Shown here piece after piece: positions 11,149 to 25,285 of a stretch of DNA of 25,285 nucleotides. The position numbers and the translations under genes are program-made. Source of the DNA: a virus; the IMG/VR virus record IMGVR_UViG_3300028829_002724, positions 1 to 25,285 of that record. One strand, 5' to 3'. A model generated the notes under the pieces. The model had not been told where the DNA came from. It saw nothing but the letters and a program-made list of their open reading frames with translations, and made no database searches. The number at the start of each line of letters is the position of its first letter. The stretch's first letter is position 1.

Positions 11149-11918
11149 TATTGTACCTCTACCAAATTAAGAGAAAAAGAATATAAATTCTGAGTATTTA
11201 AAGAATATTCTTGAATATCTCCAGACATCATTACTTTTAATAATGGAGTAGTGAAAACAAGGGTATCTGCTGCTGAAAGAGATTTTTGAAGCGTAGGCAT
11301 ACAATGAATAACTAATTGATGAGTGCCTGCAGGAGTATTTTCATTAGTATTATAAGTAGATGAGGTTGCTACGCGAGTCACCATATATGCTTTTTTATGG
11401 TTAGAATTAGCTGCGTTGAAAGTAAACATATCGCCCGGAAGAGGAGTATTATGAGTAGTTGAATTATAGTAATTAGCGTTACCTAGAGTGGAGTCTCCTT
11501 GTATTGTCATTAATCGAGTTCCTACAGTCTCACTAGATACAGTCTTTAAAACATTAGAGGCGCTCCAAGTAGCAAAAGTAGAGTCTTTTGGCACTCTATT
11601 TTGAGGTAAAGAAATATAGAAATAATTATTGCGAAGTGCATTTCTTTGGAGTAAAAAAGTATAAACAGGGTCAAACTGTTCCCGAGTCATAGGATTATAA
11701 GTAATTTTTATTTTCCATTTATGCGCTGCTACATATCGAGTAAGAATTCTTCCTGAGTTAGTGGAATCTTTAATTCGAGGTTGATCTGAAGTAAGAGAAA
11801 CAGATGCAAACCCCGGGCCCGCTGTTCCGCCGCTAGATGTTGCTAAACTCTGCCCAGCATCTCCTATGGGATAGTTGGGATCAGGTAATACATCTAAATA
11901 ACTAGTAAAAGTTGTCAT
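11148..11918 (-). CDS. Distal tail protein-like, 256 residues
   Basis: This tail protein lies between the tape measure and tail tip genes, where siphoviruses encode the distal tail protein that joins the tube to the tip. Residues of about 65-100 (KWKIKITYNPMTREQFDPVY, then a YFYISLPQNR segment) resemble the beta-rich N-terminal part of small tail-tip proteins. The end (SLNTQNLYSFSLNLVEVQ) is the kind of strand-forming tail that packs in a ring. I see no signal peptide or membrane segment. Both junctions are TAATG stop-start overlaps, so translation is coupled on both sides. The role rests mainly on gene order, since distal tail proteins are poorly conserved; a lambda gpM or gpL-type tip component is an alternative. 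Confidence 0.6.
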   Translation of the reverse strand: MTTFTSYLDVLPDPNYPIGDAGQSLATSSGGTAGPGFASVSLTSDQPRIKDSTNSGRILTRYVAAHKWKIKITYNPMTREQFDPVYTFLLQRNALRNNYFYISLPQNRVPKDSTFATWSASNVLKTVSSETVGTRLMTIQGDSTLGNANYYNSTTHNTPLPGDMFTFNAANSNHKKAYMVTRVATSSTYNTNENTPAGTHQLVIHCMPTLQKSLSAADTLVFTTPLLKVMMSGDIQEYSLNTQNLYSFSLNLVEVQ

Positions 11919-14900
11919 TAGTATCTATTTACTCCTCCAGCTGAAGGGGTAAATACTGATGTATCTACTCCTTCAACAAAGTCTTGACCATAAGAATTTG
12001 CAGCTTGTCGAATCATTCCAATTATATTTCCTCTCTGTTCAACTAACAAATCTTCAACTCCTGACGCATCAATTGTATTAATATTAAAACTTACATTCGT
12101 AGATGTCATAGGAGTGATGTCATCATTTGGTACAATTCGTCCGGGAATTTCGGGTACAAATAGCTCTGGTCCCTGCTCCCCGACCATAAATGCTGTATTT
12201 CCACCTTCTGCTCGATTTCTGTAACCGGAGAAGGCTGGCGTAAAGGCTTCTGGGCCTCCTGTACCGCTTTCTCCTCGGAAATAACCAAGCTCTCCTCGTG
12301 CTGATCTAGATTTTGCTAAGTCTACTGAGTCTCTACGCTGTCCTGCAGTAATAGTTTGAGGGCCTGAAGCAGATACAGAGCCCCCTCCCCCATTATATGT
12401 CATGCTCTGAATAGTTGCTAATTGTTGGGCACCCATTGCAACAACCACAGCAGCCGCGGCAGCAGCAATTGCGGGGCCTACATAAGGAATACCCACCATT
12501 GCCTTATAAGCTTCCATTGCACCTGTGGCTGTTGCCATAATAGTTTGTGCAATCTTCATCTTTTTATCTGCTTCAAAAGCTTTTCGTTTCTCTGCGTCTT
12601 TCTTTTTCTCAAGCTGCGATATTTTTGCAAGACTCTGTTTTGATTTTCCGTCTCGTTTTTTCTCTGCTTCAATTTCTTGGTCTAAAGCTCGAACTCTTTG
12701 CTCCGAAGCGGCTTTTTGTACAGAACCAATTGTTTGAATAATACTCATTGCAGCGCTCATGCCTGCCATTATTTTATCAGCCGCACTTGCTCCTTCGGTG
12801 CCTATAATCTGAAATGCACTCGTAAAAGTTTCGGCTATATTTGCAATGCCACTTGACATTGCGGCCATTAGTTCACCTTCTGGGCCTAATTTTCTAAAGT
12901 CTTCTGCTAAGTTATCAAACGTTGAAATAGCAGTACTAATACTTACTTGTATGTTTTGTGCTTGGGCGATTTGAAGTGCAGCTTGAGCCGCTTCAAGCTC
13001 CTTTGTTAAATCCTCTCCGTCACTAATTCTTTGTCTTAGCCCCTCTAATACGTTTTGGGCATTCTGTACTGCCGCTCCTGCTGCGTCTCGTGCTTGCTGT
13101 CCTGCAAACGCTCCCGGAAGGGAAGAAGACCCAATTCTACTACCAATTTGTTGCGCAGCATTTAGTCGTAATTGAGCTCCTGCAAGTTGAGTTTTAATTT
13201 GAAGTAATTGTTTTTCTCTTTCAAGTTTCTCCCTATCGGCTACTTCTAGATTAGTCTTTAATTGCATTTCGATTGTCATTAATCGAATTTGGTCTGCTCT
13301 TATGCTGTTTTGAAGATTTAGAGAGGTAGCAAGACTGCCAGAAGTAAATGAAGCAGCTGTTTCAGCTATGTTAAGAGCTCTTTGAGCTATATCTATGGCA
13401 TATAGTTTTGCTAAAAATTCGTCTGCGGTCATGCCTGTTGCTTTTAAGGCTTCGTTATAATCTTTTAAAGCTTTTATAGCTGCTTCATTCTGTCCGAGAG
13501 TAGTGAAAGCATTTGAGGTATCTTCAGAAGTACGCTTTAACTCTTCTAAATTACGGATTGCTCCTAGAATATCTCCACCTCCAAGAGTATCTCTTAATTG
13601 CGTACCTATTTCGTCTATTCCTGTCTTCAAAGTCGAGGATCCCGAAACAGCAGCACTTGCAGCAGCTTCAAGTCTTTCTAACTCTTCAAAATTCATATTT
13701 TGTACAGCTCTTTGGTAAGACTCAGAAACACTCCCTAAACCCTCTAAAGCCTCCATTAAAGCTCTGGTTGCTTCTTCTCTATCTTTAGCATTCATTACGA
13801 ATCCAAGAGTCTCAGAATCTGTTAAGCCATCATTTTCATCAAATCCGCCTAAACGCTTTTTATTTATTGCACTAAGAGCAGAAGACACCTGCATACTTTG
13901 TAATGCTTTTGCTACAGAAAGTCCTTTTTTAGCCGCGTCTGTTTCTTCCGACATTCCCGCTACTACATTACTTAGACTTTCTTTCAATACGTCCAAATTA
14001 TCAATATAAGAATTTAGTGCTTCATTAGAAGCTGCAGTAGCTTGTCTACCGTCTTGGAATCCCTTCAAAAACTTACCAAAAGAACTTTCTTCCAACATTT
14101 GGACAAATTTACTTGATTCTGTATTTAAAGGTTTAAATTCTCCCGCTAAATTACTAACTTCAATAGCTCCTTGCCCAAAACCTGCAAAAGAACCTTGTAA
14201 GTTACTTGAAAATTCTATTAAGCCAAAATCTTTTCCAGTAAAAGCATTTAAACTAGATATAAATCCATTTATTTTGTCTACAATATCGTTTACAAAACTA
14301 TCCAAACCACCAAGAACGGTAGAAATCATGTCGCTAAACATCATTTTTACACTTTTAACAACTGTACGCCACCCATTTAGAAAACTATCAATAAACCCAA
14401 AAAATCCGGGAGCAATATAATTTATACCTTTAGCTACAAAATTAAGTACAGTATCAATACCTGCCGCAACAGACCGAATAATGCTAAAAGGAGAGTTAAC
14501 AACAGCCATAACTAATTCTTTTATCATTATAAGAATACCAACTACACCGGCGAGGCGCATTGCACGATCCATTTGTTTGCCCATAAATGCTGCAGCTTTA
14601 CCCGCAGCAAGAAAGGTTTTCGTTCCAAAATTTTTAATAGTTTGAAAGTATATTCTAGCCTTTAATCCTGCTTTGTCCCACATCAAACCTGCTCTCTTAA
14701 AAAAGCCTACATTTGATTGATCCATTTTTGCAAGACTAAGTTTTAAGCTGCGTACCATATCAATATTAACGCCTTGAAAAGTATTTTTAAGAATAGCGCC
14801 GCTTTGTTTATATTGAGCTTCCGCATCTTTCAACATTTTCTTAAGTTGGCCTTTTTGTTGAGGTGTTAATTCTTGACCTTTTGCAACTTTTTGTACTAGT

Positions 14901-16018
14901 GCGCTTCCTCCTGCTTTGTCTCCTTCCTTTAAAATACCTCTTGCTACAGACTTGGCCGAGGCAACTTTTGCATCATCAAGTTTTTTATTTGTTTTTTCTA
15001 TATCTGCTTGAAAGTCTCTTAGGGCGCCCTTAGCGTTATCTAACTTTTCTTTGGAAGCAGTTTCTATGTCTCCAAATTTTTCTTTAATTGCATCCATAGG
15101 GAGTGCAGCTTTACCAATACTAAGAGCCAGTAAGCCGAAAGCGGCTACTGCTGCGGCACCGCTTTTATTTAAAATATTTGCTATGCCTTCGAATACGGGA
15201 AGAATAAATTGAGTAGCACTTTTAATGATATCTTCTAAAGTTTTACTTAATTTTACAAAAGGATTAGTAGCGCCATCCACATCTCCAAAAAGCTCATTTA
15301 ATTGTCTTTGGGTTTCTATAAGAACGGCTTGACTTCTTTGAGCTGCATTGAGTTCGTCTCTATTTCGACCAATAGCATCAGCGTATCGTTGTGTAGCTTC
15401 TTCGAGCCGAAGAGTAATACCTAATTCATCTAGTAATTCTGGTTCAGCTTTTGACGCGCCACGAATTAGACGGTCAAAAGAATCTTGAAAATCACGTCCC
15501 AAAGCTGTCGAAGCTTTTCTAGCGCCTTCTGCAAGATCTTCTAATTGGCTTGGTGAAAAGCCTTTTGCAAGACCAATTGCAGCTGCTTCTCCCGCTTCTC
15601 TAAACCCTAAAAGACCATCACTAGCCTCTCTTAATCTTTGAGTTACAGAACCTAAAGCTGTTCCGGTTTTTTCCGCAAAAGCTACTTGTGATTGTTCGAG
15701 AAGTTTTACATCTGCAGCACGCTTAAAGAAATTATATGCAGCACTTAGAGCAAAAACATTTGAAGCTAAAACAGCATACGCAGGAACTAAACCGCTTCCT
15801 ACTGTTTGACTTTGCTTAGCAAAAGATTTAGTAGTGTTTGCACCAAGCTGAGCAGTGCCTTTTTCTAATTTATTATAGCGATTTCTCTTTTTCGATAACT
15901 CGTCGGTTGAGGTTCCTAATTTATCAGTTTCGGCAGCAGCTTTTTTAGCTTCACTTCCTATTATTGATAAACTACCATCGTCATCAACCTTAATTTTTAA
16001 GTTAATCGAATTAGCCAC
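11918..16018 (-). CDS. Tail tape measure protein, 1366 residues
   Basis: This protein sets tail length and is ejected with the DNA. It is the long Ala/Lys/Glu/Gln-rich helical protein expected directly after the tail assembly chaperones. Likely membrane-active segments lie around residues 485-510 (VVGILIMIKELVMAVV) and 1176-1200 (Ala/Val-rich, containing GPAIAAAAAAVVVAMG). Near residues 1271-1296 is the tape measure C-terminal signature FMVGEQGPELFVP followed by GRIVP. The start is GTG (16018), not ATG, and overlaps the end of the upstream chaperone frame by 8 bases with only a weak AGAG site, so translation is probably coupled. By analogy with T5 (1219 residues, about 180 nm) and lambda, the length suggests a tail of roughly 200 nm. 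Lysozyme or peptidase motifs were not recognised. Confidence 0.95.
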   Translation of the reverse strand: MANSINLKIKVDDDGSLSIIGSEAKKAAAETDKLGTSTDELSKKRNRYNKLEKGTAQLGANTTKSFAKQSQTVGSGLVPAYAVLASNVFALSAAYNFFKRAADVKLLEQSQVAFAEKTGTALGSVTQRLREASDGLLGFREAGEAAAIGLAKGFSPSQLEDLAEGARKASTALGRDFQDSFDRLIRGASKAEPELLDELGITLRLEEATQRYADAIGRNRDELNAAQRSQAVLIETQRQLNELFGDVDGATNPFVKLSKTLEDIIKSATQFILPVFEGIANILNKSGAAAVAAFGLLALSIGKAALPMDAIKEKFGDIETASKEKLDNAKGALRDFQADIEKTNKKLDDAKVASAKSVARGILKEGDKAGGSALVQKVAKGQELTPQQKGQLKKMLKDAEAQYKQSGAILKNTFQGVNIDMVRSLKLSLAKMDQSNVGFFKRAGLMWDKAGLKARIYFQTIKNFGTKTFLAAGKAAAFMGKQMDRAMRLAGVVGILIMIKELVMAVVNSPFSIIRSVAAGIDTVLNFVAKGINYIAPGFFGFIDSFLNGWRTVVKSVKMMFSDMISTVLGGLDSFVNDIVDKINGFISSLNAFTGKDFGLIEFSSNLQGSFAGFGQGAIEVSNLAGEFKPLNTESSKFVQMLEESSFGKFLKGFQDGRQATAASNEALNSYIDNLDVLKESLSNVVAGMSEETDAAKKGLSVAKALQSMQVSSALSAINKKRLGGFDENDGLTDSETLGFVMNAKDREEATRALMEALEGLGSVSESYQRAVQNMNFEELERLEAAASAAVSGSSTLKTGIDEIGTQLRDTLGGGDILGAIRNLEELKRTSEDTSNAFTTLGQNEAAIKALKDYNEALKATGMTADEFLAKLYAIDIAQRALNIAETAASFTSGSLATSLNLQNSIRADQIRLMTIEMQLKTNLEVADREKLEREKQLLQIKTQLAGAQLRLNAAQQIGSRIGSSSLPGAFAGQQARDAAGAAVQNAQNVLEGLRQRISDGEDLTKELEAAQAALQIAQAQNIQVSISTAISTFDNLAEDFRKLGPEGELMAAMSSGIANIAETFTSAFQIIGTEGASAADKIMAGMSAAMSIIQTIGSVQKAASEQRVRALDQEIEAEKKRDGKSKQSLAKISQLEKKKDAEKRKAFEADKKMKIAQTIMATATGAMEAYKAMVGIPYVGPAIAAAAAAVVVAMGAQQLATIQSMTYNGGGGSVSASGPQTITAGQRRDSVDLAKSRSARGELGYFRGESGTGGPEAFTPAFSGYRNRAEGGNTAFMVGEQGPELFVPEIPGRIVPNDDITPMTSTNVSFNINTIDASGVEDLLVEQRGNIIGMIRQAANSYGQDFVEGVDTSVFTPSAGGVNRY

Positions 16019-16400
16019 GCGATTTTCTCTTTAGCTTGTCGTACTCCTTTTTCAGTTGTTCGGAGGACTTTTTTATAGCTCTTGAGTCTAAGAAGGATAA
16101 TATTTCTAAGAAAAACTCTTTATCCTCTATTCCGTAGACTTCTATAAAATATTTTAAATTTGTATAGTCTTTTCCGATATATCCTATTTCTGGATAAATT
16201 CTATCCCCTAAAAGATTGAACGCCTGTACTGCATCGGTTACTATACTTGGAAAATCTTCCCAGCCCGGAGGCATTTCTTCTGGTGCTGGTTCTCTTCCTA
16301 ATTGTTCCATCATCTCAAGATATCTATCTTGAGTCATTCCAGTGTCGCTATTCTGAAGCAGTTTTTCCAGTCTTTTTAGACACTCTTCCTTCTCGTCCAC
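16011..16400 (-). CDS. Tail assembly chaperone, second frame (gpT-like extension)
   Basis: This 129-codon frame overlaps the end of the first chaperone by 53 bases and ends just inside the tape measure start, as gpT does in the lambda G-GT arrangement. The nominal start is GTG (16400) with no recognisable ribosome binding site. Reading is open upstream only to 16412, after a TAG. The frame is +1 relative to the first chaperone, so expression by frameshift (+1 or -2) would give a fusion of about 261 residues. The sequence is charged and helical (DEKEECLKRLEKLLQ at the start, EYDKLKRKSRG at the end), as in other such extensions. The chaperones bind the tape measure and recruit tube subunits; they are not part of the finished tail. 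A separate start at the ATG of MTQDRY (about 16337) is possible. Confidence 0.75.
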   Translation of the reverse strand: MDEKEECLKRLEKLLQNSDTGMTQDRYLEMMEQLGREPAPEEMPPGWEDFPSIVTDAVQAFNLLGDRIYPEIGYIGKDYTNLKYFIEVYGIEDKEFFLEILSFLDSRAIKKSSEQLKKEYDKLKRKSRG

Positions 16401-16797
16401 TACGAAAATTATCTAAATCAAAGACTACCTCATTGAGCCAAGTATCAAATTCTGTAGAGTTAGTTACTAAAACTTCTGCATTTTCTTTTGAGTACTCTAT
16501 TTCTGTTGTAGGATCTTGATCATCCGTATTAATAAGAAGCAAAGTTTCTAAATGCTCAACAGTAAGTCCTTTCCAATTTTTAATGCTTGCTTCTGCGAAC
16601 TCAGTGACAAATTTATCTTCGTCTAAGTCTTCTACAAGTTGTCGAGTTTTTCTATCAAATTTTTGAGTTGTGCATCTTTTGCGAAGAGATGTAAGTTCTT
16701 TTCTTGAAAGATTTGCTACTTCTACTGAAAATCCGGGCAAGCCCGCAAAATCAATCCATGCCGATTTAGTATCGACCATAAGTTTTTTAAGTTCCAT
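16348..16797 (-). CDS. Tail assembly chaperone, first frame (gpG-like), 149 residues
   Basis: This small protein lies just before the tape measure and is overlapped by a second frame, which is the classic position of the gpG-type tail assembly chaperone. The sequence has an N-terminal beta part (KSAWIDFAGLPGFSVEVANL) followed by a helical part (LSRKELTSLRKRC, and VEHLETLLLINT), a composition common in this group. The ribosome binding site is the strongest in the window: GAGGAGGT (16810-16803), 5 bases before the ATG and overlapping the stop of the preceding tail gene. This fits a need for many copies. A small share of ribosomes probably shift frame near its end to make the extended form. Confidence 0.8.
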   Translation of the reverse strand: MELKKLMVDTKSAWIDFAGLPGFSVEVANLSRKELTSLRKRCTTQKFDRKTRQLVEDLDEDKFVTEFAEASIKNWKGLTVEHLETLLLINTDDQDPTTEIEYSKENAEVLVTNSTEFDTWLNEVVFDLDNFRSGREGRVSKKTGKTASE

Positions 16798-16802
16798 TTA
16801 TG

Positions 16803-16810
16803 ACCTCCTC
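16803..16810 (-). promoter_or_regulatory. Near-perfect ribosome binding site of the chaperone
   Basis: GAGGAGGT matches the 16S anti-Shine-Dalgarno over eight bases and lies 5 bases before the ATG at 16797. It also overlaps the TGA of the preceding gene, so it can capture ribosomes that have just terminated. It is the best such site seen in the window. Confidence 0.85.
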
Positions 16811-17699
16811 AGTCAGTGTCGTAATTAAGTTTTGTTGCAAAATTGGAAGGATATAATGGTGAATACCTCCAATCATAGTTTCGTAAAAATACAGGAGAGC
16901 CAGTATTTACTCTAGTTGTATAAGAAACATCCCCTAAAAAATGAATACCTCTAAAGGTGTTACTTAAAGCACTAAAATCCCCGCTTCCTGCTTTTAGGTC
17001 AAGAGAGGCGTTTGCCTTAAAATCTGACGCATACGATGTTGTTGTATCTGTTAAATATTGAGCAATTGATCCCGCTAATATTCTTTTAGATAAGGTGAAC
17101 CCCGATGGATACATCGTGGTTGCAGATATAGCGTTATTTACAGTTTTATACCCTGTCCATTGTATGTCATTTTGAAGTTCCATACTGACACTCACAACAT
17201 CCGTCATAAGAGAAGGACCATCTAAATAAATTTCCACTTTTGGAATAATATAAGTTTTATCTGTAAATGCACTGCTTGGAGTAAATCCGCTTACTCCTCT
17301 ATAAAGCTGTGCCGCTTCACCCGAAATCTGTAGAGCCAGGGGACGAGATCGCTCGATAACGTAATTCCCGGTTGTCATTACTGATTTTCGAAGGCGGTAA
17401 GTATCTGCCTGTGTTTTAATATATAAATCAAACTCTGTCACATCGACTAATAAAGTTTGTAATATAGTATAGTTATCTTCTGCCAGTAAAGGTACTTCAA
17501 AAGAAAAATTCGCAACGTTAGCTGCATTTATAACACTTTCTTCAAACAGGTCACTAGGAGAATGAATGGTAGCAACTGGATAACTTTGTTCAGAAAACGT
17601 CTGACTAAAAGTTATATTACTTACATATATTCTATATGTTGTACCCCCGCTAACTACATAAACTTCTACATCTTCTTTAAAGTTATATATTGACGGCAT
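16809..17699 (-). CDS. Tail protein, possibly a second tube-like protein, 296 residues
   Basis: The specific family is not recognised. The protein is beta-rich, with no signal peptide, helix-rich part or membrane segment. It opens with EDVEVYVVSGGTTYRIYVSN and ITFSQTFSEQSYPVATIHSP, which parallels the opening layout of the tail tube protein just upstream (a short strand, then a 'FSQ' strand, then a switch segment). Its location between the major tube gene and the chaperones suggests a minor tube-like subunit, perhaps at one end of the tube, or a cap. It is the first gene after the terminator and consensus promoter at 17748-17820. Its ribosome binding site (around AGAGTGA) is modest. Role by position and weak resemblance only. 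Confidence 0.6.
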   Translation of the reverse strand: MPSIYNFKEDVEVYVVSGGTTYRIYVSNITFSQTFSEQSYPVATIHSPSDLFEESVINAANVANFSFEVPLLAEDNYTILQTLLVDVTEFDLYIKTQADTYRLRKSVMTTGNYVIERSRPLALQISGEAAQLYRGVSGFTPSSAFTDKTYIIPKVEIYLDGPSLMTDVVSVSMELQNDIQWTGYKTVNNAISATTMYPSGFTLSKRILAGSIAQYLTDTTTSYASDFKANASLDLKAGSGDFSALSNTFRGIHFLGDVSYTTRVNTGSPVFLRNYDWRYSPLYPSNFATKLNYDTD

Positions 17700-17747
17700 T
17701 TAATTCACTCTGCTTGAAGGCTTGGTTTTTATACTCCTAACTATTGT

Positions 17748-17776
17748 ATTATAGTTTACATAAGGAGAAATGTCAA
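17748..17776 (-). promoter_or_regulatory. Perfect consensus sigma70 promoter after the tail tube gene
   Basis: On the minus strand TTGACA (17776-17771), a 17-base spacer and TATAAT (17753-17748) form a perfect sigma70 promoter. An A/T-rich stretch lies just upstream and the terminator at 17798-17820 precedes it. Transcription should start near 17741 and cover the minor tail protein, chaperones, tape measure and tail tip genes. It matches the fiber promoter at 2651-2679 in both hexamers and spacer length, while the spacers themselves differ. Confidence 0.9.
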
Positions 17777-17797
17777 GATTTATTTTTCGTAGGAGTA

Positions 17798-17820
17798 ATA
17801 AAAAAGGGGCCGGAGCCCCT
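17798..17820 (-). terminator. Rho-independent terminator after the major tail tube gene
   Basis: On the minus strand AGGGGC and GCCCCT form a 6-base-pair GC-rich stem around a TCCG loop, followed by a run of T. It starts 18 bases past the stop of the tube gene. It should end or reduce the transcript that brings in capsid and tube genes, and lies immediately before a fresh promoter. Confidence 0.9.
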
Positions 17821-17838
17821 ATTAAAGAGTAGTATTTA

Positions 17839-19119
17839 TTATACCTTATAAGTAAGAACTACTTCGTCTGTGTCATCAATTGTCTGAGGCAGTGCCATAA
17901 AGTTAGTCTCGAGAGAGATAACATCTTCAATTGAGTGCGTAGGAATTTCAATGTGCGCTGTTGCACAGTTAAACTCCAAGCGGTTTCCGCTTCCCCCACC
18001 AATTGCAAATACCAGTGCAAAAGAATTGGTAACAACATTTGAAATGTTACGCAAATCTTCAAAGAAGTCTCTTGACAAGTTAGAATCAAAAGTACTAGTA
18101 TCTCTGGTTAAGTAACAAGTAAAGCTTCCTGATACTGCTCGACCTCCAGTAACATGGCCTACTGGAACGTTCACAATACCCAATTCTTCCGGAGTAATAT
18201 ATGTAATATTATTTGAAATAGTAATATTTCCTCCAGTTAGAGTTAAACTATATGAAGATTGAAGCTCATTTGTACTATCATTGTCGGGGTCCTGCGACGT
18301 GGGAGTAACAGTTAGTGTAGTAAGTCGATTACGAATAAAGTTAGCAGTATCAGTAATCTTTTCATTGACATAACTAGTAGATGCTTCTGTGCCTGCTCCT
18401 ACATTTGTCATAACGTAGAGTCTGTACGCATCGTCTGAGTCCAGCCATACATCTCCCACTGCAACTGTAGTTCCGTCTTGAGTCGTGTCACCGTTTACGG
18501 GCATCGTGGCATTTTCTTCTGTGCTTCCTGTAAAGTCAATTACTTCCGAACACTGTCCACTCCAGTTAATGGTTGCAATACCGTCAATTTCAAAATCCAC
18601 GCTCGCTTCGTTTACAACTACATCCTTTAACTTAACTACAGAACGCGAAGCATCGCCAAGTACAAAATAAATATTTGCAGTTCCTAAAGTTGACTTATTT
18701 GATTCGTCAAAGTTAATTACAGATGAAGAACCTGCGGGAGTAATTACATTACTACCGTTACGATCAAAATCATAAGTTGTACCATCGTAGTTATCTGCAC
18801 CCGCCATTAACGCCCAAAGAACCTCTTCTACTGCGTGAACTTCTGCAGACCCGTCAGCAGCTCCGGTACCAGAGCCAGCAGACGTAAAAGGACGTACATA
18901 TGTAGAAATGGACCACTCACCTGGGGCGAGAGAATCATTAAAAGCACGACGACCTCTTCGACTTATTCCTGCAGAAGATTCCATTTCTGAAAGTGTAATT
19001 TCTGAGCTATTGTTTGCTTGTGAAAAGCTAAAGCCGTCTAAGACAGGAATTTCCCATACTACACCATCAAATTCGATGAAGCATTTACTGTCGCGGCTAA
19101 AATATAATTGTTCTGCCAT
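17839..19119 (-). CDS. Major tail tube protein, 426 residues
   Basis: This protein polymerises into the hollow tail tube through which DNA leaves. It opens with KCFIEFDGVVWEIPVLDGFS, then EITLSEMESSAGISRRGRRA and a GEWSISTYVRPF segment. This looks like a tube-fold strand order: strands, a long inter-ring loop, then more strands. HAVEEVLWALMAGAD follows. The C-terminal half (from about residue 245) repeats a beta-rich layout (SYSLTLTGGNITIS, GRAVSGSFTCYLT). At 426 residues it is about twice the size of single-domain tube proteins and near T5 pb6, which has two tube domains and forms trimeric rings; the same may hold here, by inference. The ribosome binding site AGGAG lies 9 bases before the ATG. 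A terminator follows directly, consistent with a highly expressed last gene of its transcript. Confidence 0.8.
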   Translation of the reverse strand: MAEQLYFSRDSKCFIEFDGVVWEIPVLDGFSFSQANNSSEITLSEMESSAGISRRGRRAFNDSLAPGEWSISTYVRPFTSAGSGTGAADGSAEVHAVEEVLWALMAGADNYDGTTYDFDRNGSNVITPAGSSSVINFDESNKSTLGTANIYFVLGDASRSVVKLKDVVVNEASVDFEIDGIATINWSGQCSEVIDFTGSTEENATMPVNGDTTQDGTTVAVGDVWLDSDDAYRLYVMTNVGAGTEASTSYVNEKITDTANFIRNRLTTLTVTPTSQDPDNDSTNELQSSYSLTLTGGNITISNNITYITPEELGIVNVPVGHVTGGRAVSGSFTCYLTRDTSTFDSNLSRDFFEDLRNISNVVTNSFALVFAIGGGSGNRLEFNCATAHIEIPTHSIEDVISLETNFMALPQTIDDTDEVVLTYKV

Positions 19120-19182
19120 AGTAATATCTCCTATGCGTATTGAAAGGACGTGGACGTGAACATCTGTTCGTGCCAGTCGTTT

Positions 19183-19635
19183 CTAGTATCGAACCTCTAT
19201 AAGAATTTCTCCCACTCCTAAAGGCTCTAGTACACCCTCATCAGTATCAATACTAATGATTGTGATTTGTTGACAATTAAATTCATTATTTTGCTTGTCA
19301 AAATATTGTAAATTTGAGTTTTCTTCAATAACCGTTTCAATGTCTTCCATAAGAGCATTAAGTGCATTCTGCGCTTCTTCCTCTTGAACATAGCAACGAA
19401 TAGTTACTGATAAAAATCTATCCTTGTAGCCCCCTCCTTGGTACTCTCTTGTTTCACTTCCCGCATTTAAATGAATTGCTGGAAAATCTTCTACTTCATC
19501 CCAAAACTTTAAATAAGGGTGAACATTGTTAGCAACATCAGATAAGTATGCTCCAGACCCATCAATATTTTTTAATTTCTCTGCAAGAGCTTGTACTATA
19601 TTTGCCCTTCTAGAAGTATAAGTTCTTGCCGCCAT
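19183..19635 (-). CDS. Tail terminator (gpU-like) protein, 150 residues
   Basis: This protein caps the finished tail tube and takes part in head-tail joining. Residues of about 47-80 hold WDEVEDFPAIHLNAGSETRE, then a GG-containing loop and RFLSVTIRCYVQEE. This 'D-F-P-x-(I/V)-x-L-x-x-G-x-E-x-R' plus 'R-F-L-x-V-T-I-R-x-Y-V' pattern is characteristic of siphovirus tail terminator or minor tail proteins. A helix follows (AQNALNALMEDIETVIEEN) and the end returns to strands (VGEILIEVRY). It starts in a TAATG overlap with the neck gene and has AGGAG upstream. It lies directly before the tube gene, the usual order. The 63 bases between it and the tube gene contain no convincing promoter. Confidence 0.8.
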   Translation of the reverse strand: MAARTYTSRRANIVQALAEKLKNIDGSGAYLSDVANNVHPYLKFWDEVEDFPAIHLNAGSETREYQGGGYKDRFLSVTIRCYVQEEEAQNALNALMEDIETVIEENSNLQYFDKQNNEFNCQQITIISIDTDEGVLEPLGVGEILIEVRY

Positions 19636-21038
19636 TACATTCTCCTAGTGTATAATCTTCCTACCACTAATGTTGCTGCTATTTCTCTAATTGACTGGTC
19701 TATTAAAGCTCTAGGGTCTCGTTCTCTACTTGAAAATCTTGAACCACTAGTAGATTCAAATACTTGATAAGGATTTTTTTGGTAAGTATAGCCAATACTT
19801 GGGTATCCTGCTCGTGTAGTACTAATATCTGTGGCTCTTACACTTTGTGCAAAACGTCCTGTGCGATTTACAAGCCTGGGCTCTCCCATATTTTTTACAA
19901 GTACATTTGGAAGTGCTTGATTAATTAAAGCTAGTAAAGCTATTGGTGATTTAGCACTTTTTTGAGCTTTAGTAGCTCTTGGATAGCTTTTCTTCGCTTT
20001 CTTTTTCTTTTTTCGTTGTGCAGAAGCTCCTGCAATTTTTGCAGTTCCAGTACTTCCTTTCGAGGTTTCTTCTTCGGGCAACTTAGATACTGTAACAGAA
20101 ATACTTTTTGATGTTTTTAACTCTTTTTTAATTTTATCTGCTACAATATGTAATGCTCTTTCCTGAACTCGAGTAGTAAGAGGTTTGCTGCCTCCCGCTT
20201 CCATATATTGCTGACCAAAAGTACCTCGAAGACATTCTTCTGCTAGTATATCTTCTAATTTTTTTCGAATTTGTTTCCAGTCATACTCTTCTGAACCCGC
20301 AGGGTTATTAGTAGTGTCACCAATAGTCAAAGGAATTTCTAAAGTATCTGATACAGAATATTCTTTAACATCTGTTCGTTTTTTCCAAGTTCCTACTACA
20401 TCTCCGTAATATTCTCCAATAGACCGTGCAATTACTGCGGTCTGAGAAGGAGTAAAATCAGACTCTACTACATTAGAAAGGAGATTTTCATAAAGTTTTG
20501 CTAATGAAAATGACCCTACAGTAGTTTTATCTTCGTGAAGAACTTGAGTTCTTCGATTAAATACTCCAAGAGTATCTCCTGCTTTTAGTTTTTGAGATGT
20601 TTTTTTATCAAAACCCCCAAAGTTACTAACGGCATTCCATCCTTGTTTAGAAATAATATTCCGTATACTAGAATGAAGTCCTTGAGGCTGTCGAATAACT
20701 ATTTCATTTCCGTCTTTAAATATACTTCCCTTTCTTCTTCCTCGGGTTTTTGCATAATAAGTTTCAAAATTATTAAATACTATAGTTGCAGCATGTACTG
20801 CCGCTGCCTCTATTGAGGCTATTTTTTCTGCACTTTCGTTTAAATCTTTAAACGACCTGTCTTTGTATAAGGCTGCTATTGTATTATTCTTATACAAAGT
20901 GATTAAATCTTCTTTTGTAATTGTAGTAATATGAGGGAATCCCCCCATATGACTTCGTAAAACCGTGTCCCAGCGTCGGCGATACCGAGGGTTTGTTAAA
21001 AACTCTTTTATAAGTTTGTCTACAAGAGCTTTGCTCAT
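19635..21038 (-). CDS. Neck / head-tail joining protein, 467 residues
   Basis: A structural neck protein is inferred from position between the gp6-like connector and tail terminator. Residues 1-340 are mixed helical and of unrecognised family (ending near VQERALHIVADKIKKELK and the VSKLPEEETSKG linker). Residues of about 342-365 form a very basic stretch, RKKKKKAKKSYPRATKAQKS. The last 100 residues contain NRTGRFAQSVRATDIS followed by YPSIGYTYQKNPYQVFE, resembling the R-x-G-R/S-L...S...Y-A-x-Y-x-E pattern of HK97 gp10-type tail completion proteins. At 467 residues it is much longer than gp10 alone (about 120-170), so it may be a fusion of two neck functions. An A_AAA_AAG slippery heptamer in frame at 20013-20007 lies in the basic linker. 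Both ends are TAATG overlaps. Confidence 0.55.
   Translation of the reverse strand: MSKALVDKLIKEFLTNPRYRRRWDTVLRSHMGGFPHITTITKEDLITLYKNNTIAALYKDRSFKDLNESAEKIASIEAAAVHAATIVFNNFETYYAKTRGRRKGSIFKDGNEIVIRQPQGLHSSIRNIISKQGWNAVSNFGGFDKKTSQKLKAGDTLGVFNRRTQVLHEDKTTVGSFSLAKLYENLLSNVVESDFTPSQTAVIARSIGEYYGDVVGTWKKRTDVKEYSVSDTLEIPLTIGDTTNNPAGSEEYDWKQIRKKLEDILAEECLRGTFGQQYMEAGGSKPLTTRVQERALHIVADKIKKELKTSKSISVTVSKLPEEETSKGSTGTAKIAGASAQRKKKKKAKKSYPRATKAQKSAKSPIALLALINQALPNVLVKNMGEPRLVNRTGRFAQSVRATDISTTRAGYPSIGYTYQKNPYQVFESTSGSRFSSRERDPRALIDQSIREIAATLVVGRLYTRRM
20007..20031 (-). promoter_or_regulatory. Candidate -1 frameshift site, dnaX-like
   Basis: In the reading frame of the 467-residue neck gene, codons 342-344 are CGA AAA AAG, which places the canonical slippery heptamer A_AAA_AAG at 20013-20007. 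An AGGAG (20031-20027) lies 13 bases upstream, the kind of stimulatory Shine-Dalgarno element known in E. coli dnaX, where the same heptamer is used with a 10-base spacing. A -1 shift would add 12 codons (EKESEEKLSKSY) and stop. No strong downstream hairpin was found, so efficiency may be low. Confidence 0.4.
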
Positions 21039-21619
21039 TAAAAGTTTTTATACATATCAAGAACTCTCTTAATATGATCCGGGAATGCTACGCTATTCGC
21101 CAGACTAGTTGACCCCTGATTTTGTATACTGGCTCCACCTAAAGTTCTTCTTTCTTTGTGCTCGTCTCTTAAATAGTAAGTAATAAGATCTACAACTGCT
21201 AGTTTTAAATCTTCAGGACAACTACTGTATCCTGCAGTATAGGTAACTCTTACTGACCCCGCTCCTTGTGGCCAGTTTTTATAGGTACGTCCTGTTACAT
21301 ACAGCACACTATCCGTAGCTGTATCTAAATAATATTCAGTAGTTGGAACAGTGGCATAATTTTCATCTACTGAGTCTCTTTTCTCTACCGATACAATATT
21401 GTTTACAGGACTTTCTGTAAGCTGTAATATATGAGTAGCCCAATTTACACTAAAAAGTTCAACTTTATTAGTAGAATAATAATCTATTAATGAATTACCG
21501 CAATAAGTTTTTACTAATTGACTCACAGAAGGAACTAAAGTTGCTAGACGCAGGTCTTCTTTAGGACTGCTAATTCCTTCTATTTCTTTATAATCTGCTA
21601 AAGTAATTAAATCAGTCAT
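21038..21619 (-). CDS. Head-tail connector, HK97 gp6-like, 193 residues
   Basis: This is a neck protein of the gp6 or 'phage QLRG/adaptor' type that sits under the portal. The N-terminus (LITLADYKEIEGISSPKEDL, then LRLATLVPSVSQLVKTYCG) gives the typical opening helices. The middle has a beta insert (ELFSVNWATHILQLTESPVN, then SVEKRD). Near residue 120 comes NWPQGAGSVRVTYTAGYSSCPEDLKLAVVDL, quoted here in part as VRVTYTAGY and PEDLKLAVVDL, the hallmark of this family. The C-terminus ends in helices (FPDHIKRVLDMYKNF). It follows the capsid terminator by a few bases and has only a weak ribosome binding site. Its stop shares one base with the next start (TAATG). Confidence 0.85.
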   Translation of the reverse strand: MTDLITLADYKEIEGISSPKEDLRLATLVPSVSQLVKTYCGNSLIDYYSTNKVELFSVNWATHILQLTESPVNNIVSVEKRDSVDENYATVPTTEYYLDTATDSVLYVTGRTYKNWPQGAGSVRVTYTAGYSSCPEDLKLAVVDLITYYLRDEHKERRTLGGASIQNQGSTSLANSVAFPDHIKRVLDMYKNF

Positions 21620-21630
21620 AAGTCCATTAA

Positions 21631-21661
21631 TAAAAACTTGGGGAGGAAAACCTCCCCAGTT
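21631..21661 (-). terminator. Rho-independent terminator after the capsid gene
   Basis: On the minus strand TGGGGAGG and CCTCCCCA form an 8-base-pair stem with a TTTT loop; a one-base bulge allows three further pairs. A T-run ending in TTTTTA follows. No promoter is visible before the next gene, so neck genes must be read by partial read-through, which would keep them well below capsid levels. Confidence 0.9.
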
Positions 21662-21672
21662 TATAAAGCTAA

Positions 21673-21747
21673 TTAAGCTTCGTGATCAATCTTGATTACA
21701 GGCTCGTTACCTGCACCGTCACCGGCCAGAATTTCTTCAAAACCAAG
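21673..21747 (-). other. Alternative (-1 frame) C-terminus of the capsid protein
   Basis: From codon 639 (His) of the capsid gene a -1 reading gives 24 residues, starting LGFEEILAGDGAGNEPV and ending IDHEA, then TAA 12 bases before the terminator stem. This ending looks like that of HK97-type capsids ('V-x-A-x-x-L-G-F...A-G-D-G-A-G-N') and uses the same GGT, GAA, AAC, CTG codons as the rest of the gene. The in-frame ending (LVLKKFWPVTVQVTSL) does neither. A missing base near 21744-21750 would explain it. Confidence 0.65.
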
Positions 21748-23054
21748 TGACAAGCTACGATGACACGACGCTGGTTCATGACTTCGTAATCTTGCTCAAC
21801 AGTTACACCACGGAGTCGAGGCATAACATAGTTACGAGTGTAACAAGCGAATGCAGCAGGAGCAGCAGCTACTTCTGCGGGGAACTCTTCGGATACGATT
21901 ACGGGCGAACCGTAAACAGCACCGATAGTACCAACAACTCGAGCGGCCAAATCAGAACCAACTTCGTCCAGAGTCTGGAAGTTGCTGTCATTCAACAGAT
22001 CAAAGTAGCTTTGCTGGCTAACAATGTAAGCCATATCGCTGGGCGAAAGACCATACTTACCCATTGCTTCACGAGCGCCTAACAGCATGGCTGAAGTTAA
22101 GCGAGTGCCTGCAGCCAAAGAGAAGGTACCGGGATCATATGCAGCTGCATAGTTGTCCAAGCCAGAAATAGTACCGTTACCATTGATGATAACATCCTCT
22201 ACTGCACGACCATGTGCGCGAGCAACTGACTCAACCAGCATAGGCATCAAGTTAATGAGTACCTGCTCGTCTACGTCGTTGTTCATAAAGGTGGTTGATA
22301 CCAAACGATAAGCGTTGAGAACAACTTGCTTAGCGTTATACTGGTTAGCAGTTACCTGGGGACGGTTCTCCAAGTTTCCTGAAGTAGCGTCGGCTGCCCA
22401 AGCAGCTTTACCAGCATCAGTTTGGATTGGCAATACAGTTGCACCACCGTTGACAGGAAGCTCACGGAACAATCGAGCTACTTTCAGCTCATTCATGATT
22501 TCCTTTTCGATCAGTGAAGAAACTTCCTGGTCGATGTCAGCAGCGTTAGCAGCGTAGTTTACGCCAGCCTTCTCTTGCAAGTCACGTGCAAAATCAGTGT
22601 CCCAACCCTTACGAGTCATAACACCCAGCATGTGAGCAGTTACAAAGTCATTGCCCCACTTAGCAATATCAGACTTCTCAGCCCGATCGCCAAATACACG
22701 CTTGGACTCACGCATTTTAGAGATTTCGTCAGATTTCTCTTCGAGGTCCTTCTTGTACTTAGCCAGAGTCTCTTCCATATCGCTATTACGCTTATTCAGA
22801 TCCTCTTGTACGTCAGCCAACAGTCGCTCAGTACCAGATTCGATACCAGTAGTGATTGCAGACTTGACTTCTTCTTCTTGAGCAGCTTTTTCAGCAGCTT
22901 CTTGAACTGCCTTCTCTTCTGCTTCTTGGGCTGCCTTTTCTTCGACAGCTTTCGTCTCAGCTTGCTTCATAGCGATCTTAGCAGCAGTCTCCTCTGCTAC
23001 TTTCTTCGCAAAAGCTTCCAAGTCGATTTCGGGAGTTTTTACTTCTTCCGACAT
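21696..23054 (-). CDS. Nested scaffold-major capsid protein from an internal start, 452 residues
   Basis: ATG at 23054 is in frame as codon 204 of the protease-capsid fusion (EIK-MSEEVK). AGGAG (23065-23061) lies 6 bases upstream, an ideal site and much better than that of the full-length start. Initiation here makes scaffold plus capsid without the protease, exactly the part HK97 encodes as a separate gene. This would supply hundreds of capsid subunits and only a few protease-bearing fusions, similar in principle to the nested C/Nu3 genes of lambda. The call rests on the start signals and domain boundary. If the frameshift at its end is corrected, the product ends at 21673. Confidence 0.75.
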   Translation of the reverse strand: MSEEVKTPEIDLEAFAKKVAEETAAKIAMKQAETKAVEEKAAQEAEEKAVQEAAEKAAQEEEVKSAITTGIESGTERLLADVQEDLNKRNSDMEETLAKYKKDLEEKSDEISKMRESKRVFGDRAEKSDIAKWGNDFVTAHMLGVMTRKGWDTDFARDLQEKAGVNYAANAADIDQEVSSLIEKEIMNELKVARLFRELPVNGGATVLPIQTDAGKAAWAADATSGNLENRPQVTANQYNAKQVVLNAYRLVSTTFMNNDVDEQVLINLMPMLVESVARAHGRAVEDVIINGNGTISGLDNYAAAYDPGTFSLAAGTRLTSAMLLGAREAMGKYGLSPSDMAYIVSQQSYFDLLNDSNFQTLDEVGSDLAARVVGTIGAVYGSPVIVSEEFPAEVAAAPAAFACYTRNYVMPRLRGVTVEQDYEVMNQRRVIVACHLVLKKFWPVTVQVTSL

Positions 23055-23663
23055 TTTGATCTCCTGTTTAGCGGATTTTTCCGCTTCGTCCGGTGTTTCA
23101 CTAGCTATAAATGAATTTTCATCCTTAGCCAGAGACTGACCGGCTAGATCTACACGATTGGTGAAAGTTTTCTTGAATTCATTGTACTCATCCATAGAGT
23201 CAAATGACTTCGCCAGAGAAAAAGTTGCTGCTTGATTACAAGGTACCGATACAACTGATACTTCAAACAACTCAGCATCCTTAATCTTTAATCCGTCAGT
23301 TTCCGATAGGTAATCAGCATCCTTGACTCGGAAACCAACAGAAAATGCTCCAAGAATGCCTTCTTTTACTAATTGCGCCACATGATCAGGCGCGGATTTT
23401 GAAATTTTAGCCTTTAGTTCAAGACCATTTTCAGTGACTTTAAGTCCTGTGGCTCTACCAATAGGCTTATTATAATCATGATTGAAAAGAATAATAGGGT
23501 TCTTTTCAAAATTGCGAAGTCCACCTTTTGTCCAAGCTTCTGCCATAATAACATCATTTGCACGATCCTCATCATGAGTACTTGCCATACCGCAGATATG
23601 AACCCCTCCGTCATCTTCGTCCAGAGCTTTAAAAGTAGATGTAAGATTAAAAATCTTTTCCAT
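21696..23663 (-). CDS. Prohead protease - scaffold - major capsid fusion, 655 residues
   Basis: One frame encodes three parts. Residues 1-150 are an HK97-type S78 prohead protease: His62 in FNHDY, Ser108 in GAFSVGF and Glu134 in ELFEVSVVSVP are the expected catalytic positions. Residues of about 204-320 are an Ala/Glu/Lys-rich coiled coil, the scaffolding delta-like domain. Residues of about 330-655 are the HK97-fold capsid, with VEDVIINGNGTISGL, YIVSQQSYFDLL and YGSPVIVSEEFP. Cleavage probably occurs near residues 318-332. An internal ATG (codon 204) with a strong ribosome binding site should also give the scaffold-capsid part alone. The gene starts in a TAATG overlap with only a weak site. 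The last 16 codons look out of frame: a -1 shift at codon 639 restores a normal capsid end. Codon use is more GC-rich than in nearby genes, as expected for the most abundant protein. Confidence 0.92.
   Translation of the reverse strand: MEKIFNLTSTFKALDEDDGGVHICGMASTHDEDRANDVIMAEAWTKGGLRNFEKNPIILFNHDYNKPIGRATGLKVTENGLELKAKISKSAPDHVAQLVKEGILGAFSVGFRVKDADYLSETDGLKIKDAELFEVSVVSVPCNQAATFSLAKSFDSMDEYNEFKKTFTNRVDLAGQSLAKDENSFIASETPDEAEKSAKQEIKMSEEVKTPEIDLEAFAKKVAEETAAKIAMKQAETKAVEEKAAQEAEEKAVQEAAEKAAQEEEVKSAITTGIESGTERLLADVQEDLNKRNSDMEETLAKYKKDLEEKSDEISKMRESKRVFGDRAEKSDIAKWGNDFVTAHMLGVMTRKGWDTDFARDLQEKAGVNYAANAADIDQEVSSLIEKEIMNELKVARLFRELPVNGGATVLPIQTDAGKAAWAADATSGNLENRPQVTANQYNAKQVVLNAYRLVSTTFMNNDVDEQVLINLMPMLVESVARAHGRAVEDVIINGNGTISGLDNYAAAYDPGTFSLAAGTRLTSAMLLGAREAMGKYGLSPSDMAYIVSQQSYFDLLNDSNFQTLDEVGSDLAARVVGTIGAVYGSPVIVSEEFPAEVAAAPAAFACYTRNYVMPRLRGVTVEQDYEVMNQRRVIVACHLVLKKFWPVTVQVTSL
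23061..23065 (-). promoter_or_regulatory. Internal ribosome binding site of the capsid
   Basis: AGGAG, 6 bases before the ATG at 23054, inside the linker between the protease and the scaffold coiled coil. It falls at the one place where a start would make biological sense, which argues against chance. Confidence 0.8.
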
Positions 23664-23986
23664 TAGTCTTCACTCTTTTCTTCTGCCGGGGCAGCTTTGC
23701 TCAAAGCCTCAAGAGGATTAGATTTAACTTTCTCTTTGGGCTTGGGCGCAGGTTTTGGTGCGGGAGCTGCTTTAGGAGCATTAATTTGTTTCCAAGCGTC
23801 AGGCATTTCGTGTTCAAGAATACCTACCATCCGCGGCCAATTACCGAAAAGATTAAAAATCATTCCGATTCGAACAGGGGCCTTTGAATCAAGTTCCCAC
23901 TCTTTTCTGGTCATAACATGACCTACTTCTAACATATACATTGCAACATCTTGCAGTACAGCCATTCTTGCGCGTGCTCTAGCCAT
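23663..23986 (-). CDS. Small protein with a homing-endonuclease-repeat-like segment, 107 residues
   Basis: The function is unknown. The start is placed at ATG 23986 because AGGAG lies 6 bases before it; an upstream ATG at 24019 would add 11 residues but has no such site. Numbered from 23986, residues of about 15-60 (VGHVMTRKEWELDSKA, then IGMIFNLFGNWPRMVGILE) have a helix-turn-helix look and match the loose pattern of the repeat found beside HNH endonucleases (G-x-x-(P/M)-T-x-x-E-W..., F-G-x-W). After that comes a Pro/Ala/Lys linker (PKAAPAPKPAPKPKEK) and an acidic end. It overlaps the portal stop by 8 bases and the protease start by TAATG, so it is co-translated with both. Possible roles are a minor head or DNA-binding protein, or a relic of a homing endonuclease. 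The repeat call is tentative. Confidence 0.65.
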   Translation of the reverse strand: MARARARMAVLQDVAMYMLEVGHVMTRKEWELDSKAPVRIGMIFNLFGNWPRMVGILEHEMPDAWKQINAPKAAPAPKPAPKPKEKVKSNPLEALSKAAPAEEKSED

Positions 23987-25166
23987 CAGTTTCTCCTTCT
24001 TCTGGGCGTCCACCCTCATCAGGATTTATCGCGCTCCCTGCAATATTTGCAGGTACTCGCAGTTCATCAAAACCTTCAATAGGGTCGAAATTAATTGCTT
24101 CTCTTGCTTCATTTGGAGTAATAATACCAGTATTTACAAGTGCTGAAAAATACTGAGCTTGGTCTCGTAACTCTGGTTGAAGTGCGGGAATATTAGTAGC
24201 ATCTTCAATAATTTCAAATCCAAAGAATCTTTCTAGAGCAAAGTTAATTTTTCTTACTATGGGAAGAATTGTTTCCAAGTAGTAAAGTCTCATGTTTGGT
24301 CGAAGGTTCGCATTGTTTCCAGAGTCTAAAAGAATCGGGGGAATACCAAGCGCCTTCAAAATAATTTTTTCGTTTTCTGTAATTGCGGATTGAAAGTCAA
24401 GTTCCTTAAAGTTTACATTTGAAATACTATCCACTTCAATTCCGCCGTCGAGAATTAGAGGCCTACGACCTCCTGCATCTGGACGATATCGAGCAGTCCA
24501 AGATTGAATCATTCGCTCTTTAATTTTCTCTGATAAGGTGTTTGGAGATTTAAGTACTAGACCTGGAACGGCTCCATTTTTAAAGAAATTATCTTGGAAC
24601 TCTCGCATATTTTTCATAAGAACCATAGTACGCAGGGCCGGCTTTAGTCGTGAGACTCCTCTATAAATAGAATAAAAAGAGTTTTCTTTAATGTGAATAA
24701 TTTCACTAGGAGAGTAATTAATTGTCTCATTATAAGTAAACTTTTCAATATAAGTAGACTCGCTAGCATGAATATGCATCTTGCTAGCGGGCAAATGATA
24801 GAGGTGTACTCCATCAAAATACATAAAAACATTGCCGTCTAAAAGATAGTCCGTAATTAGATTACGACGAAAAGTACTAATATCTTGAAAAAGATTAGGC
24901 TCTTTATTAAGTAATAAGTTTACCCTAGATCTTTTAATGTTCTTTACAACACTTGTTGTATTAAGTTGTCCACCAATTTTTGTATTTATTTCAGCGCAGT
25001 CGTCTACAATCATATTTACGCCGCGATTAACAATTTCTAGGTCTTCGTAAGCCCTTTCATAGCTTGTGTGCTTTTCACGAGAAGACTCTACTTTATGATC
25101 AAAATGAGGCTGTGCGGGATTTAACTTCTCCTCTGCCTCCTTTTGCCAAAAATTATACCAAGCCAT
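23979..25166 (-). CDS. Portal protein, HK97 gp3-type, 395 residues
   Basis: The portal forms the dodecameric ring at one capsid vertex through which DNA is packed and leaves. Signature parts are the DLEIVNRGVNMIVDDCAEIN helix near residues 42-61, the GLVLKSPNTLSEKIKERM region near 200, and the clip/stem region ending in ALGIPPILLD (272-281), which matches the 'G-(V/I)-P-P-x-L-L' hallmark of the HK97 family. The C-terminus has NTGIITPNEAREAINFDPI, also typical. The length is normal for the family. The ribosome binding site AGAGGA lies 5 bases before the ATG. The start overlaps the end of the upstream HNH gene by 14 bases. The terminase is expected further upstream, outside the window. Confidence 0.95.
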   Translation of the reverse strand: MAWYNFWQKEAEEKLNPAQPHFDHKVESSREKHTSYERAYEDLEIVNRGVNMIVDDCAEINTKIGGQLNTTSVVKNIKRSRVNLLLNKEPNLFQDISTFRRNLITDYLLDGNVFMYFDGVHLYHLPASKMHIHASESTYIEKFTYNETINYSPSEIIHIKENSFYSIYRGVSRLKPALRTMVLMKNMREFQDNFFKNGAVPGLVLKSPNTLSEKIKERMIQSWTARYRPDAGGRRPLILDGGIEVDSISNVNFKELDFQSAITENEKIILKALGIPPILLDSGNNANLRPNMRLYYLETILPIVRKINFALERFFGFEIIEDATNIPALQPELRDQAQYFSALVNTGIITPNEAREAINFDPIEGFDELRVPANIAGSAINPDEGGRPEEGETDG

Positions 25167-25285
25167 GCTTTCCTCTTTGAATCTCTACCCAACGTTTTTG
25201 TTTAGGCGCTGAATGTAATGTTGGGTTACGCCCGTATATTGAATGTAATTTTAAGTGGTGTGCATGACATATTGTAACAGTTTCA
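25153..25285 (-). CDS. HNH endonuclease, C-terminal fragment (runs off the right edge)
   Basis: The frame is open from the right edge to TAA at 25155-25153 and encodes 43 residues beginning ETVTICHAHHLKLHSIYGRN and ending WVEIQRGKHGLV. The C-H-x-H-H-x-x-x-H arrangement followed by a basic tail is the end of an HNH nuclease: the second half of the beta-beta-alpha-metal site plus its closing helix. HNH proteins next to terminase and portal genes assist the terminase in HK97-type cos phages, which is the likely role. The alternative is a free-standing homing endonuclease. The 14-base overlap with the portal start suggests an integral member of the operon. The N-terminal half is not in the window. 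Confidence 0.75.
   Translation of the reverse strand, partial: ETVTICHAHHLKLHSIYGRNPTLHSAPKQKRWVEIQRGKHGLV

Follow-up and report, generated by a model that had tools for sequence, protein, structure and literature searches.

A four-base loss near the end of the major capsid gene in one T5-like phage contig

What accounts for a phage capsid gene whose reading frame ends unlike those of its relatives, while a second frame carries the expected ending: recoding, a true mutation or a fault of the contig? The gene in question lies in IMGVR_UViG_3300028829_002724, of which 25,285 bases of virus DNA were analysed (the window). This window carries a T5-like structural module on its minus strand, and its gene order follows that of T5: portal, protease, capsid, head completion, tail completion, tail terminator and tail tube. 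The genes and reading frames concerned are these:

23979-25166, minus strand: portal gene, assigned by family matching
between the portal and capsid genes, minus strand: small gene without a family match
21696-23663, minus strand: fused prohead protease and HK97-type (T5-like) major capsid gene as read, 655 amino acids, assigned by Pfam, PHROG and relatives
21038-21619, minus strand: head completion gene
19635-21038, minus strand: tail-completion-like gene, 467 amino acids
19183-19635, minus strand: tail terminator gene
17839-19119, minus strand: major tail protein gene
2704-11148, minus strand: open reading frame of 2814 amino acids

Further tail genes follow the major tail protein gene on the minus strand. 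In the tail-completion-like product (19635-21038), the match to the T5 p143 profile (255 positions) is limited to residues 322-433 and scores below the Pfam cut-off; its long N-terminal stretch has no Pfam assignment, and the open reading frame in the same place in a related contig, L090, encodes 423 amino acids. The open reading frames at 136-1860 (574 amino acids) and 11918-16018 (1366 amino acids) gave no Pfam match at E 0.001.

The tail region also contains a probable tail-assembly-chaperone pair (genes 16348-16797 and 16011-16400, minus strand, overlapping around 16348-16410), upstream of the 1366-residue frame, which resembles a tape measure. The identities of the chaperones and the tape measure are presumed from their position. 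The second frame of the pair opens by +1 (or -2) near AAT TTT CGT, which is common to the window and loci L084, L085 and L087 and reads AAC TTT CGT in L086. Eight more distant loci (L088, L089, L090, L099, L104, L106, L107 and L108) have GAA AAT TTT AC, which contains the canonical -1 heptamer A_AAT_TTT, and their -1 frame is open; in a ninth, L091, the pair is cut by the contig end. It is possible, judging from these sequences, that the direction of frameshifting has switched within one tail gene pair.

The identity of the capsid gene is supported by several profile matches. Residues 22-157 match the S78 prohead protease family (PF04586) at 59.5 bits (cut-off 21), and residues 377-625 match the HK97-type capsid family (PF05065) at 32.3 bits (cut-off 24.2). 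PHROG matches are to phrog_617 and phrog_80, and a capsid-domain profile built from 29 relatives matches the solved chains 8ho3 (E 3.5e-52), 8zvi (9.8e-52) and 5tjt (2.6e-51). By these profile matches the gene belongs with T5-like HK97-fold capsids that carry a fused S78 protease. Its likeness to the T5-type major capsid (PDB 5tjt, 6okb, 6oma and 6omc, with the related chains 8ho3 and 8zvi) rests on phrog_617, the profile match and the gene order; it differs from that capsid in that the window copy is without the normal capsid end. PDB 5tjt is presumably the T5 capsid, although its record is named only "Major capsid protein". Structure models made for an intact relative and for the window's version were of low confidence (mean pLDDT 60.2 and 61.7, pTM 0.47), and no inference was taken from them.

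The departure from the family is confined to the end of the gene, where residues 1-639 match relatives and the final 16 residues do not. Three features describe the break:

21696-21746, minus strand: spurious ending that follows His639 in frame (16 codons and a stop), with no likeness to the relatives compared
21673-21747, minus strand: original capsid ending, now displaced into the -1 frame, LGFEEILAGDGAGNEPVIKIDHEA (LGFEEI...IDHEA), 24 codons plus stop, like the in-frame endings of relatives
between 21751 and 21752, minus strand: breakpoint inside [AS][ST]Q[SA]LGF at which four bases are absent by comparison with relatives, placed by blastn gaps and a codon comparison of 76 relatives

In the zero frame the protein closes with ...RRVIVACHLVLKKFWPVTVQVTSL before a stop at 21698-21696, and the -1 frame reads its ending from 21747 to a stop at 21675-21673. 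Where close relatives have the conserved motif, the zero frame has ACHLVLKK, and the -1 frame carries what remains of the ending.

For comparison, the best 80 of at least 596 relatives confirmed in IMG/VR were used; these 80 are 65-98% identical to the window in their best segment and 44-96% over residues 381-639. The site is reached by 76 of the 80, the contigs of L005, L018, L029 and L061 stopping before it, and all 76 continue in one frame through [AS][ST]Q[SA]LGF into an ending of similar kind. Full-length capsid loci in hand give the same picture: all 87 (79 distinct proteins, as some contigs were fetched twice, such as L007/L092 and L003/L106) have a single open frame of 653-684 amino acids with the motif. 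Another 16 loci are partial. Among these, L084 (46% identical) reads AAQSLGF in one frame, and the only two-frame loci are L082 and L083, Demerecviridae records from GenBank phages in which protease and capsid are separate genes, whereas the window and its close relatives have them in one open frame. The motif is also in frame in a separate set of 17 loci, several of them repeats of contigs already included, and in L106-L108. In an alignment of 29 selected relatives, its Q, L, G and F do not vary.

The size of the lesion follows from the blastn alignments. Gaps were tallied in the 14 top-ranked whole-window alignments; all but the L085 piece cross the site, and in each of these 13 the relative carries four bases more than the window. 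Gap positions, binned by six, fall in bins starting at 21744, 21750 or 21756, and the exact spot was taken from the codon listing of the 76 relatives; it lies about 25 codons upstream of the original capsid end. A first-pass annotation had described the gene as frameshifted near its 3′ end at His639 and had suggested a one-base error. The break is real in the sequence, and its junction is actually just ahead of His639, but the absence of four bases contradicts a one-base event. The proposal that the -1 frame holds the usual capsid ending is borne out by the 76 relatives that reach the site (among the best 80 of at least 596). With the two C-termini aligned, the -1 ending matches relatives and the zero-frame ending does not, and none of the relatives compared shares the in-frame ending.

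How long ago the ending was displaced can be judged roughly from its codons. Compared with L017, all 24 codons of the -1 ending specify the same residue with 9 synonymous differences, and this residue identity is far beyond chance. Counts of synonymous and replacement differences over the 24 codons are 9/0 for L017, 6/1 for L011, 7/1 for L006, 4/2 for L009, 6/2 for L107, 7/2 for L003 and 5/4 for L091. The opposite excess is seen with L001/L002 (2/3), L004 (4/5), L093 (3/5) and L079 (3/20), and loci with the ending ...DFAA give 3/5 or 4/5, save L091, L094 and L098. Across the 29 loci of the same length, synonymous differences outnumber replacements in 11 and are fewer in 18, a mixed signal. When differences are sorted by codon position in the -1 frame, the third position takes the greatest share in each of the six relatives tabulated. 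As the displaced ending is still protein-like in the -1 frame, the lesion appears to be either of recent date or artefactual; with so few differences nothing finer can be said.

An intact second frame could also be reached by recoding. T7 gene 10 (10A/10B) and Listeria phage PSA provide known cases of recoding near the end of a capsid gene, and the window resembles T7 gene 10 in that its -1 frame extends the capsid beyond the zero-frame stop. For a T7-like capsid, such a frameshift has been suggested from sequence, without proteomic support (PMC3080317). The window differs from the 10A/10B case in having no canonical slip site, in that the relatives compared have no second frame, and in that the zero-frame product is aberrant here. 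One further feature bears on the question:

21640-21657, minus strand: stem-loop like a Rho-independent terminator, 7 bp stem followed by a T run, from sequence and fold

A terminator-like element also stands 3′ of the gene in the relatives printed (by eye, uncounted). The -1 stop does precede the stem, as had been noted, at a distance of about 15 bases by recount and not 12.

That programmed -1 frameshifting or another form of recoding restores the normal ending is extremely unlikely. The open -1 frame with its protein-level conservation and the precedents in other phages speak for it, as does the 116-nucleotide region including the terminator, which folds better than shuffled sequences (z -3.84, for folds without pseudoknots). 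Against these, and in agreement with the first-pass annotation, no canonical X_XXY_YYZ heptamer occurs in the possible overlap, which runs from the last -1 stop upstream to the zero-frame stop and comprises 32 codon positions, and the best candidate slip position, 21743, allows only partial pairing after a -1 slip. Once the terminator is left out, the fold energy is -25.0 kcal/mol; six intact relatives span -19.9 to -28.6, and four of these fold less stably than the window. A two-frame arrangement conserved in relatives was not found, the frame being single in 76 of the best 80 (the other four end earlier) and in 87 of 87 full-length loci, so that there was no need for a mechanism to evolve. 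These observations also give no support to the new kind of recoding that had been raised as an exciting prospect. Very unlikely, too, is a real phage with a shortened, altered and still working capsid end. Past LGF the relatives differ in length and sequence, which suggests that this part is tolerant, but the gap also breaks Q-x-LGF, whose Q, L, G and F are shared by all 29 aligned relatives, and nothing similar occurs among the loci compared. The broader notion that the gap is fixed in a living lineage, with the normal ending made by an uncatalogued non-canonical shift or with capsids assembled from truncated ends, would be just as hard to credit as recoding.

The break is an ordinary lesion, isolated and confined to one metagenome contig, and there is no support for recoding. 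It is highly probable that the lesion is unprogrammed, whether it originated as an error or as a true allele. The gap itself, its size and its absence from all the relatives compared are shown: the capsid gene of this one contig lacks four bases, which shifts the frame, exchanges the conserved end for 16 unrelated residues and leads to an early stop. Such a loss could stem from a faulty path or join at a branch of the assembly graph, or from thin read support.

A second contig bears on the choice between these origins through a shared block:

21608-21751, minus strand: block of 144 bases that matches the opening 144 bases of L090 (3300028844_004652) without a difference; L090 starts at the breakpoint

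L090 begins exactly at window position 21751, the first base past the gap, and diverges after the 144 identical bases. Beyond the block it has a different head-completion gene (74.8% identity over 21034-21751, the identical block included), while the head-completion gene of the window is nearest to that of L100 (98.96% at the amino acid level). Searches with a 29-base and a 43-base piece of this block found only L090, and queries for its intact upstream neighbour, made with its downstream sequence and with block pieces, matched only L090 itself. It is reasonable to suppose from these sequences that a graph branch or a contig boundary lies at 21751. The coincidence would fit a preceding base that was ambiguous in the assembly graph of the sample, in which case gap-bearing reads existed; it would also fit a contig boundary at 21751 across which the window was wrongly joined. 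As side observations, the contig of L061 ends after ...VIVA and that of L029 in ...EVMN, both within about ten codons of the breakpoint, and conserved sequence near the breakpoint may fragment assemblies in general. Because these contigs also stop nearby, the coincidence with L090 is weaker as evidence for either reading.

The ancestry of the surrounding region (14556-25285) is mosaic. Among the loci in hand, the nearest is L085 from 14.6 to 19.9 kb (89-98%), L100/L094 from 20.0 to 21.6 kb, and L001/L005 from 22 to 25.3 kb at about 90-94%, the capsid body (22-24 kb) being about 93% identical in DNA. Such a mosaic neighbourhood is natural for phages and is equally expected of a chimeric path.

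On balance, the gap is more likely a fault of this metagenome contig than a trait of a thriving phage. This is favoured over a true allele because selection should act strongly against a capsid that loses Q, L, G and F, residues unchanged in the 29 aligned relatives. In a benchmark, indel errors are associated with viral assemblies from mixed strains, chimeric contigs being the probable cause (PMC11443906). The window resembles such frameshifting indels or chimeric joins in metagenome contigs in having a single gap, absent in the relatives compared, at a place where another contig begins. Against an error, the other 15 minus-strand open reading frames of the window have no frame break relative to the top-four relatives printed, where covered (136-1860 and 2704-11148 in their N-terminal parts only), so the contig does not look error-ridden in general, nor like the product of noisy reads left uncorrected.

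A true allele with the four bases deleted in the sampled population, picked up by the assembler from a defective or weakened minority or from phages complemented by co-infecting intact ones, is a serious possibility, if held at less than even odds. A short deletion is an ordinary mutation, and no second lesion was seen in the window. The start of L090 at the first post-gap base would fit a de Bruijn graph with two predecessors, since the base before 21751 is T in the window and A (of a CAG codon) in the intact relatives that have G at 21751; if L090 starts there on account of two different preceding bases, the deletion junction would have been present in reads, which favours a true allele. Selection, on the other hand, should keep rare any allele with a gap in a motif whose Q, L, G and F do not vary among 29 relatives. 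The junction is also absent from the other contigs scanned: its 21-mer had no matches in viral_contigs and none in genome_contigs, though the window's own record was not returned either, so that near copies may be left out. The earlier view that an error is the simplest explanation, with a real truncating mutation as the alternative, still stands by inference, apart from the size of one base that it assumed.

Ideas about recoding are left unchanged by this capsid lesion. When a frameshift is met in an essential gene of a metagenome contig, the relatives should be compared before anything else; here that comparison revealed how large the lesion is and what the normal ending looks like, and it made a recoding mechanism unnecessary. 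A second contig that starts exactly at a breakpoint may be a useful hint for judging lesions in virus collections.
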